This document shows positions 26,223-63,699 of a stretch of 64,000 nt of DNA, piece after piece. The notes beneath the pieces were generated by a model. It was not told the origin of the DNA. It searched no databases and saw only the letters and a program-made list of their open reading frames with translations. How positions within the stretch are numbered: the stretch's first letter is position 1; every line of letters begins with the position of its first letter. The DNA lies in assembly GCF_004217185.1 (NCBI RefSeq), contig NZ_SHKL01000001.1:1053001-1117000 (forward strand), read 5' to 3'. The translations under genes and the position numbers were made by a program. The DNA comes from Pseudonocardia sediminis. Lineage in GTDB: Bacteria > Actinomycetota > Actinomycetes > Mycobacteriales > Pseudonocardiaceae.

Positions 26223-26279
26223 CGCAGCTCCCCAGGACGGCGGCTCGGACCGGCGATCCGATCGTAGAGATCGGCGCCT

Positions 26280-26493
26280 CGGCGGCGATACCGGACAGGT
26301 CTGTCGCGGATCGCTGCCCGGGTGCTGATCACCGGCTCGGCGCTGCTCCGGGTCCGGGCCCTGGGCCGCGTGGCCGCCGTCGTGCTGCGGGTCGACCCGG
26401 CCGACACCGACGCGAGGCCACCGAACATCTTCTTCTCGGTGATGCCCGGCTCCGGGGTCAGGATCTCGCGGCCACCTCGACGTCGTAGGCCAT
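26280..26493 (-). pseudogene. Remnant of a TfoX N-terminal-domain gene
   Basis: From ATG 26493 the sequence reads MAYDVEVAA and then stops; in a neighbouring frame it continues REILTPEPGITEKKMFGGLA, together matching the start of TfoX-like domain proteins. The usual continuation after MFGGLA is absent and the frame becomes Arg/Ser/Thr-rich. This is a frameshifted, truncated relic. The left boundary is approximate. Confidence 0.55.
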
Positions 26494-34337: not shown

Positions 34338-34390
34338 CTACCAGGATGACGGACCGGAGGTCCCGACGCAAGGCCGGCCGCGCGATCCGT

Positions 34391-34698
34391 CGAGCGTCAC
34401 GAGACGGCGGTGCGGACCACCGGAACGTGACACCCGCCGTCGCCGTCGCCGTCGCCGCCGCGACGACCGGCGACGCCACCGAGCACGCGAGCGTGGCGAA
34501 ATGACGGTCGGCATCGCCGGAACGTGACTTTCGATGATGCGTCGGTGACCGGCGAGGCGGCCGACGCCCGTCGGCGTCACGCAATGGCGGTGAGCACCGC
34601 CGGAACGTGACGCTCGCCGAGGCCGCGGGCTGACGAGTCGCACGGGCTCCGGTCAGCGTCACGTCGAGGTCGCTGCGATCGCCGGAACGTGGCGCTCG
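34391..34698. repeat. Four copies of a 46-bp hairpin repeat (HR)
   Basis: Copies at 34391-34436, 34488-34533, 34571-34616 and 34653-34698, spaced 97, 83 and 82 bases start to start. The structure is an outer stem GCGTCACG/CGTGACGC, a 4x4 internal loop, an inner stem near GGCGGT/ACCGCC and a short loop; GGAACGTG in the 3' half is the best-conserved part. The copy at 34571 folds perfectly. Between copies 1 and 2 lies a GCC/GTC microsatellite (34436-34461). These fill the 433-base gap upstream of the DUF559 gene. Confidence 0.85.
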
Positions 34699-34739
34699 AT
34701 CCGATGGAACCGAATCGCCTCGGGGGCGGTCCAAGTCGT

Positions 34740-35597
34740 ATGGACCTGACTCGACCGTTCGTCGGATCGGAAGCGGTGGCCGCCGGGGCGGTCACCCGGG
34801 CGCGACTCCGCGGGAAGGCGTTCCGCGCGCTGTTCCACGGCATCTACGTCCGCGCGCACGTGCCGGTGACGCTGGCGCTCCGGTCGGAGGCCGCCTACCT
34901 GCTGGTCGACGGAGTCGGTGCGCTCGCCGGCTACTCCGCCGCGGAGATGCTCGGCGCGTCCTGTGCTCCGATCGGCGCACCGGTGGAGGTGATCGTCCCG
35001 GGTGGCAACCGACGGTCGCAGGCCGGTCTGGTGGTCCATCGCGGTGCTCTGGCCGAGGACGAGACCGTGTACCGGGCGGGCATGCTCGTCACCTCCCCGG
35101 CGCGGGCCGCCTACGACCTCGCGCGCCGGTCGCCGAGGATCGAGGCGGTGGCCGCGATCGACGCGCTCAGTTTCCACGGCGACATCGACCCGATGCGTGT
35201 ACTGGAGATCGCGGCCCGCTACCCGGGCGCTCGCGGAATCCGCGGCCTCGCCGACCTGGTGGCGCTGGCCGACCGCCGGGCGCAGTCGCCTATGGAGACC
35301 CGTCTCCGTCTGGCGCTGCACGACGGCGGCCTGCCGGCCCCGACACTTCAGCATCCGGTCGGGCCGTACTTCCTCGATCTCTGCTATCCCGACCTCCTCC
35401 TCGCGATCGAGTACAACGGCGGTCACCACCGCGAGGCGGACCAGGCCCTCTACGATCTCGACCGCGAGGCGTACGTCGTCCGGCACGGCTGGCACGTCGT
35501 CCGTCTCCCGGCGCGCGACGTTCTCGGCCGCCCCGACGTCGTCGCCGACCGGGTCCGCTACGAACGGGCCGTCCGGGCTCGATCGAGCGTCACGTAA
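34740..35597 (+). CDS. DUF559-domain protein with AbiEi-like N-terminus
   Basis: A 285-residue protein. The N-terminal half (about residues 1-150) resembles AbiEi-type antitoxin/regulatory proteins (FHGIYVRAHVPVTLALRSEAAYLLV, SAAEMLGASCAP, VHRGALAEDETV, TSPARAAYDLARRSP). The C-terminal half is a DUF559, Vsr-like PD-(D/E)XK nuclease fold: SPMETRLRLALHDGGLPAP, FLDLCYPDLLLAIEYNGGHHR, and HGWHVVRLPARDVL. Glu of METR, Asp of LDLCYPD and Glu of IEYNG are likely metal ligands. Hairpin repeats lie on both sides; one provides the last three codons and stop. Confidence 0.8.
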   Translation: MDLTRPFVGSEAVAAGAVTRARLRGKAFRALFHGIYVRAHVPVTLALRSEAAYLLVDGVGALAGYSAAEMLGASCAPIGAPVEVIVPGGNRRSQAGLVVHRGALAEDETVYRAGMLVTSPARAAYDLARRSPRIEAVAAIDALSFHGDIDPMRVLEIAARYPGARGIRGLADLVALADRRAQSPMETRLRLALHDGGLPAPTLQHPVGPYFLDLCYPDLLLAIEYNGGHHREADQALYDLDREAYVVRHGWHVVRLPARDVLGRPDVVADRVRYERAVRARSSVT

Positions 35598-35628
35598 TGG
35601 CGGACCAACAGCCTTTTCGTGACGCTCG
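35584..35628. repeat. HR hairpin copy overlapping the DUF559 stop codon
   Basis: A 45-base copy with perfect 11-bp arms CGAGCGTCACG/CGTGACGCTCG. The DUF559 reading frame enters it and ends at its internal TAA (35595-35597). Confidence 0.88.
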
Positions 35629-35655
35629 ACGAACCGCCGCGGCCCGCCAGCTGGC

Positions 35656-35701
35656 TGAGCATCACGAAGTGGCGATCCGCGCCGCCATGTCGTGACACTC
35701 G
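35656..35701. repeat. HR hairpin copy
   Basis: A 46-base diverged copy (arms GCATCACG/CGTGACAC) between the DUF559 and GNAT genes. Confidence 0.75.
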
Positions 35702-35723
35702 GCGACGCGACGGGGTGGGGGCG

Positions 35724-54872: not shown

Positions 54873-54917
54873 CGAGCGTCACGAAACGGTTGTCCGAACG
54901 CCAGAACGTGACACTCG
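54873..54917. repeat. HR hairpin copy
   Basis: A 45-base copy beginning CGAGCGTCACG and ending CGTGACACTCG, the same family as the copies around the DUF559 gene 20 kb away. It lies in the 344-base gap between ligase and acyl-CoA dehydrogenase. Confidence 0.85.
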
Positions 54918-54933
54918 ACCGGAAGCATGCAGT

Positions 54934-54979
54934 CGAGCGTCACGTTGTGGTCGATCACGCCGCCACAACGTGACGGTCA
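54934..54979. repeat. HR hairpin copy
   Basis: A 46-base copy, 16 bases after the previous one. Its arms CACGTTGTGG/CCACAACGTG pair perfectly over 10 bp. The remaining ~105 bases to the acyl-CoA dehydrogenase stop show nothing recognisable. Confidence 0.83.
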
Positions 54980-55086
54980 CTTCCGACTGCGACCCACCGG
55001 TGCGTTCGGGTCGGCCCGAACCGGCGGTCGCGAGGCGCACGGCCCGATCCGCCCCGGCGAGGCGGCCCGGTCGACGTCATGGGCTC

Positions 55087-63615: not shown

Positions 63616-63637
63616 GCGGTTTGGGAGAGATCAGCAC

Positions 63638-63681
63638 TTCGGCGGCGGATCGCGACACGGCTGTCGCGTTCCGCCGCCGAA
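63638..63681. terminator. Bidirectional hairpin terminator
   Basis: A 12-bp stem TTCGGCGGCGGA/TCCGCCGCCGAA, a T-T mismatch, then 7 bp CGCGACA/TGTCGCG around a CGGC loop. It lies between the RNA methyltransferase stop and the convergent ligase stop. Confidence 0.78.
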
Positions 63682-63699
63682 CCGCCGATCATGTCGCGG

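Follow-up and report, generated by a model that had tools for sequence, protein, structure and literature searches.

Why should a gene for a DUF559 protein, a family filed in Pfam as one of unknown function, be bracketed by an array of palindromes in the genome of Pseudonocardia sediminis? The gene, referred to here as the AbiEi-DUF559 gene (34740..35597, plus strand, 285 amino acids), was identified with Pfam, PADLOC and a structure model in a stretch of 64,000 nucleotides, contig C1 1053001-1117000 of genome G000, which we call the window. That DUF559 genes are paired with palindromes proves to be true and to hold generally, and the palindromes differ from gene to gene. At the locus itself the palindromes, recorded without strand, were located by sequence match at 34390..34437, 34487..34534, 34570..34617 and 34652..34699 upstream and at 35583..35629 and 35655..35702 downstream, which is the arrangement of four plus two copies given in the original prediction, an earlier reading of the letters. 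The second upstream copy lies inside a stretch of about 98 bp that the sister species G078 is without, and the stop codon of the gene falls within the first downstream palindrome. Two further copies of this window family, at 54873..54918 and 54933..54980, complete the eight previously counted in the window. An alignment of 42 copies gives a consensus of approximately CGAGCGTCACG-NNN-TGGCGG-N6-CCGCCA-NNN-CGTGACGCTCG, with the outer stem GCGTCACG/CGTGACGC as predicted and likewise the inner stem near TGGCGG/CCGCCA, whereas the unit measures 48 bp rather than 45-46 bp and the proposed 4x4 internal loop has 3 bases per side. In a shuffle control of the 64 kb, the right half-site has 12 matches compared with 2.06 expected, a number reached in 0 of 100 shuffles, and the left half-site alone is not above chance (15 matches compared with 11.5; 15 of 100 shuffles). 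At gathering scores, Rfam yields only a tRNA in the window.

Comparison of the 700 bp upstream with the 700 bp downstream of each DUF559 gene revealed that in many cases the two flanks have in common an element of about 60 bp, which matches in either orientation and is a different one at each gene, with the upstream palindrome often at about -160 to -95. Among 47 Pseudonocardia DUF559 loci, one more having been left out as too short, 30 are two-sided palindromic by a looser criterion and 22 by a stricter one (best match at least 38 bits), and in the window's own genome this holds for 9 of the 12 DUF559-like genes examined, with the start of five own-genome DUF559 genes set by a fixed offset. 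For controls, 854 kb of this genome supplied 654 genes, of which 500 were sampled; 27 of these passed the loose and 8 the strict criterion. Two of these eight are further, diverged DUF559-like genes at genome positions 933549 and 3024048, missed by Pfam and found via their palindromes, and five of the other six were checked base by base and represent coding paralogy or low complexity. The strict test accordingly stands at 22/47 Pseudonocardia DUF559 loci compared with 6/497 other genes (p 5e-21), and the loose test over all genera at 39/77 compared with 24/497 (p 7e-23), the controls coming from one genome and a home-made gene finder, with up to two DUF559-like genes without palindromes remaining among the 497. 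Among random flank pairs, 4 of 150 scored 276-410 bits and one 69; these are presumably orthologous loci.

The same arrangement is found in other genera. Of 80 named loci 79 were tested, and the strict test is passed by 20 of the 50 labelled Pseudonocardia or Pseudonocardiales, many of which are the same as the 47 genus loci and hence not independent, and by 6 of the 29 others, namely in Sphaerimonospora, Hamadaea, Planotetraspora, Actinomycetospora, Kribbella and one unassigned metagenome-assembled genome. The score of the upstream region for a symmetric palindrome exceeds that of 649 control genes (medians 13 for Pseudonocardia and 12 for others compared with 9; p 5e-14 and 9e-5), such scores parting DUF559 from control genes on average and with much overlap, and the downstream score in other genera is no different from the controls (p 0.17). 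A search of 72,556 plasmid records for relatives of the window protein gave two (E 1e-15), both from Arthrobacter sp. StoSoilB13 and 31 and 33% identical, and both loci are two-sided, each with its own palindrome. Within the plasmid collection these palindromes are confined to the two records, at 39 and 10 places, which may correspond to about 20 and 5 sites, as palindromes can match both strands. No relative was found among 50,697 phages at E 1e-8. As a separate observation, one Arthrobacter megaplasmid (L368, 4601-4668) holds an isolated palindrome that is 85% identical to the one belonging to the DUF559 gene of the second megaplasmid in this strain. In Catenuloplanes (L290, L294 and L301), DUF559 genes are preceded, at a distance of about 100-210 bp, by very long near-perfect palindromes spanning 73 bp.

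The palindromes change together with the proteins beside which they lie. Across 35 of the 39 two-sided loci, four being omitted as long arrays, palindrome similarity rises with protein identity (Mantel rho 0.31, 0/2000 permutations). Palindrome scores of at least 14 are seen in 1-3% of pairs below 45% protein identity, in 42% at 55-60% identity, in 57% at 60-70% and in 6/6 pairs above 70%, and several pairs with alike palindromes do not share neighbor genes.

Copies of the palindromes are also dispersed through the genome. A sequence-only model built from the 42 aligned copies of the window family gave 150 matches in the own genome at E up to 10 with both strands counted, and in the stretches analyzed these resolve into 63 copies free of gaps plus 5 that carry a small indel, a total of 68 sites in 29 clusters when the two sides of the window gene are counted as two. 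Most of the clusters (25/29, allowing an edge overlap of up to 40 nt) sit between predicted genes. The neighbors are convergent at 14/29 clusters compared with 46/248 neighbor pairs in the same stretches (Fisher p 7e-4), a background that includes the array neighbors themselves, and 4/29 clusters lie between divergent genes. Within arrays the distance from the start of one copy to the start of the next is mostly 62, 71-73 or 82-83 bp, values that step by a single helical turn (Rayleigh p 1.5e-7 at 10.5 bp for the first spacing of each of 21 arrays of this family), with exceptional spacings of 97, 102, 124 and 137 bp occurring once each. By eye, the spacers differ between arrays, apart from two arrays with alike spacers. 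Of the nine DUF559 genes that Pfam finds in the own genome, the window family flanks only the window's gene. The original prediction had proposed clustering of the copies near DUF559 genes as a check, and this is not what is seen, with one such gene flanked and 29 mostly intergenic clusters; the check misleads because it presumed one repeat for all DUF559 genes, and the palindromes differ between genes, close relatives being the only ones to have one in common. The idea that the repeats are unrelated to other DUF559 genes was rejected, being true only of the window family.

In other genomes, the window family has 98, 77 and 48 matches at E 1e-4 in G000, G078 and G084, fewer in six others and none in 53 of 62. 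Among 22 array loci of G078, some of which overlap, 12 align well to array regions of the own genome, one weakly and nine not. The proposal that copy number tracks the gene has support only in part: gene presence and palindrome copy number agree in G000, G078 and the two Arthrobacter plasmids, with G084 an exception so far. The palindromes of the DUF559 genes at 1904, 6203, 3177 and 3024 kb are likewise dispersed in 1.11 Mb of own-genome DNA, and 13 of 14 such copies inspected lie outside predicted genes, several of them coming from stretches chosen for window-family arrays and thus not forming a random sample. A second family, R2, which belongs to the DUF559 gene at genome 1904 kb, has 73 model matches, or about 37 sites, in the own genome, at least six of which adjoin the DUF559 genes at 1904, 3916 and 1600 kb. 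Elsewhere R2 has 58, 38, 32 and 10 matches in G001, G078, G084 and G070, and 11 of 62 genomes are positive.

The original prediction had read the window repeats as hairpins. Folding is clearly better than for shuffled sequences in three of the six copies around the gene (z -3.6, -6.1 and -3.3) and not clearly better in the other three (z -1.9, -0.04 and -1.1). Over the 42 copies the two halves vary independently of one another, with 84.9% of cells paired compared with 85.3% after shuffling and a covariation score of 0.134 compared with 0.144. Because changes in one half-site are unmatched in the other, a conserved hairpin is unsupported for the window family, and an RNA hairpin was rejected for it on this ground; as judged from the alignment, each half acts like a half-site of its own in duplex DNA. 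The R2 family does covary (79.0% paired compared with 75.0% shuffled; 0/500 shuffles). Its alignment has 10 rows, some of them from next to the DUF559 genes at 1904 kb and at 3916 kb, and because the rows mix sites of more than one DUF559 gene we read the covariation as concerted half-site change between specificities, a hairpin role remaining conceivable in this family.

The structure model of the window protein joins two folds, that of an AbiEi antitoxin and that of Vsr and homing endonucleases. In the predicted structure, residues 1-178 are AbiEi-like and residues 183-281 Vsr/homing-endonuclease-like, with Glu-186, Asp-213, Glu-224 and His-230 conserved in the nuclease part. The match to Pfam DUF559 (PF04480) scores 33.4 bits compared with a cut-off of 20.6, MTES_1575 is matched below the Pfam cut-off, and the AbiEi models of PADLOC match the protein, so that the earlier assignment of an AbiEi-like N terminus and a Vsr-like domain is borne out by the DUF559 score, PADLOC and the structure model together. 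Caulobacter, a control in the Pfam search, carries DUF559. The neighbors of the window gene are the phenylacetate gene PaaA and a GNAT gene, and no DUF1814 toxin gene was found adjoining it at this locus.

Comparison of loci shows how far the gene and its palindromes behave as one unit. In 4 of 15 non-syntenic pairs the alignment spans the upstream palindrome. The similarity between L167 and L173, and that between L270 and L288, two loci of one P. spinosispora genome, begins and ends at the outer palindrome edges, and L306/L314 has a clean left end, with similar palindromes on the right beyond an indel. Between paaA and tetR, the gene occurs in G000, G078, G001, G027, G061 and G070, seems broken in G002 and is absent in six species; in G061 and G070 (L188 and L189) it is inverted, as recombination between flanking palindromes could give. 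At the same intergenic region, species without the DUF559 gene (L126 and L133) still seem, on visual inspection, to have long palindromes, which may be remnants or solo copies. The window locus has 4 upstream and 2 downstream copies in G000, compared with 3 and 4 in G078. The DUF559 proteins of G000 and G001 are 55% identical compared with 78-89% for four neighbors, and those of G000 and G078 are 88% identical compared with 92-96% for four neighbors and 83% for GNAT.

Repetitive extragenic palindromic (REP) elements and their REP-associated tyrosine transposases (RAYTs) are the closest known parallel. A published account describes RAYT genes as having a REP on either side in every case, as coevolving with these REPs and as evolving fast (PMC2817692). 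The DUF559 system resembles this in that the gene lies between copies of a palindrome of its own, further copies are scattered over intergenic DNA and often form arrays, palindromes and proteins co-diverge, a genome has several specificities and the gene evolves faster than most of its neighbors. It differs in that RAYTs are tyrosine transposases related to IS200/IS605, whereas here the enzyme joins AbiEi to a Vsr-like nuclease, and in the greater length of the palindromes. Identity with RAYTs was rejected, as a search with the Y1/HUH transposase family (PF01797) gave 0 matches in the own genome and did find the family in 5 of 14 control genomes; the system is not RAYT by membership because the enzyme class differs, and no GTAG-type head is present in the consensus of the 42 window-family copies. 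The likeness first proposed therefore stands as to two-sided flanking, gene-specific palindromes, dispersed intergenic copies and co-divergence, and falls as to a link through the window family alone. The predicted AbiEi fold is shared with the AbiE type IV toxin-antitoxin systems (AbiEi, Rv2827c), from which the window gene differs in the lack of an adjoining DUF1814 toxin, the added nuclease domain and the palindromes that are also downstream and dispersed. Unlike Vsr and the EDxHD homing endonuclease I-Bth0305I, the gene is here intergenic and tied to an AbiEi domain and palindromes. CGTC-tagged REPs of five other phyla, which are 20-40 bp long and are reported not to flank transposase genes and to be without a known transposase (PMC3733652), are similar in being dispersed palindromes, and the window family contains CGTC.

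What the computations provide is the pairing, the gene-specific palindromes, the dispersed copies, the co-divergence, the unit ends (in few pairs), the inversion at one site and the folds; binding, cutting and movement by the AbiEi-DUF559 protein are what we infer. The locus is probably a REP/RAYT-like unit with an unrelated enzyme, in which a nuclease, its gene bracketed by its own palindromes, would spread these by cutting and repair or by transposition. Actinobacterial AbiEi-DUF559 genes often form such compact units: a palindrome of about 46-73 bp made up of two inverted half-sites is followed, after a gap of usually 40-105 bp, by the gene, and a second copy of that palindrome closes the unit. 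The AbiEi fold, which forms the N-terminal two thirds, would bind one half-site, with a pair of molecules per palindrome, and the C-terminal Vsr-like nuclease would thereby be brought to the palindrome, with two domains per site, and may nick or cut there. Cutting followed by repair, strand transfer or transposition would place new copies of the palindromes, and on rare occasions of the complete unit, in other intergenic regions, and each protein lineage and its own palindrome would change together. A wider proposition, to which we give slightly less than an even chance, is that these are a new class of mobile or domesticated actinobacterial DNA unit, in which an AbiEi-aimed Vsr/homing-type nuclease recognizes and spreads its own terminal palindromes, with about a dozen such genes in a genome like G000, most having their own palindrome and several their own dispersed copies.

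Several observations weigh against a palindrome-spreading nuclease. Binding alone would account for much. A two-sided palindrome is lacking at 17/47 DUF559 loci of the genus and at 38/77 over all genera. G084 has about 24 window-family sites, with none beside the three examined of its four strong DUF559 matches, one of these three being at a contig end. Co-divergence may partly stem from linkage of gene and flank, and the copies have diverged. The L172/L173 alignment continues downstream to +480 and 11 of the 15 non-syntenic alignments stop inside the unit, so that clean unit ends rest on few pairs. The single attempt at an empty site, for one G078 array locus, met a rearranged region and found no empty site with clean boundaries and no target duplication. 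Unlike active insertion sequences, the relatives of the window protein hardly occur on plasmids and in phages. Autoregulation is an unlikely explanation, which could nevertheless account for the upstream copy; in it the AbiEi-like domain would repress its own promoter via the upstream palindrome, the downstream copy would help by looping, the dispersed copies would be a regulon or decoys and the nuclease would do something else. AbiEi and Rv2827c repress their own operons through paired inverted repeats upstream, the frequent position of the upstream palindrome fits such a role, and the helical phasing of the copies suits cooperative protein binding. A promoter operator leaves unexplained, however, why the palindrome recurs downstream of the gene, why units at unrelated loci end at the edges of their palindromes (few pairs) and the excess of arrays between convergent genes.

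The remaining explanations account for less of the data. A role in defense, with a single-gene nuclease whose palindromes would label self DNA, titrate the enzyme or catch DNA entering the cell, is improbable; AbiEi is part of abortive-infection systems, the PADLOC hits are AbiEi models and a protein diverging faster than most of its neighbors would suit an arms race, but the window gene lies between PaaA and GNAT and not among recognized defense genes. That the palindromes act in transcripts, as terminators or mRNA-stabilizing structures near many genes, appears very improbable, given the absence of half-to-half covariation in the window family and the clusters between divergent genes, against which stand the three window copies that fold much better than shuffles, the 14 arrays between convergent genes and the covarying rows of R2, an alignment that mixes sites of more than one DUF559 gene. 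Least credible of all is another, unseen transposase that moves the palindromes while DUF559 genes merely collect them: most copies do lie away from DUF559 genes, but the palindromes at these genes track protein similarity, two-sided palindromes are rare at other genes and the genome has no Y1/RAYT transposase.

The DUF559-palindrome units of Pseudonocardia and other soil actinobacteria look like a so far undescribed counterpart of REP/transposase pairs. No account of a DUF559/AbiEi or Vsr-like protein paired with palindromes was found among the open-licence papers listed, by title and start of abstract, and no report of intergenic palindromic repeats in Pseudonocardia was found in the open-licence literature, preprints being outside the coverage in both cases. 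Because the palindromes are gene-specific, the genome sequence itself predicts a directly testable DNA target for each DUF559 protein, and the many natural protein-palindrome pairs would lend themselves to studies of DNA recognition by AbiEi-type domains. Should the nuclease spread its palindromes, unrelated components would have given rise to the REP/RAYT life style for a second time, and the DNA-binding domain of a toxin-antitoxin system would have been turned into an aiming device.

Two dispersed R2 copies, again without strand, are present in the window itself at 26269..26331 and 63629..63691, the latter between convergent genes; this is the family that flanks the DUF559 gene at genome 1904 kb. 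At genome 976-977, 1413, 3597 and 4915 kb, palindromes of different DUF559 families occur close together, some intergenic regions collecting several.
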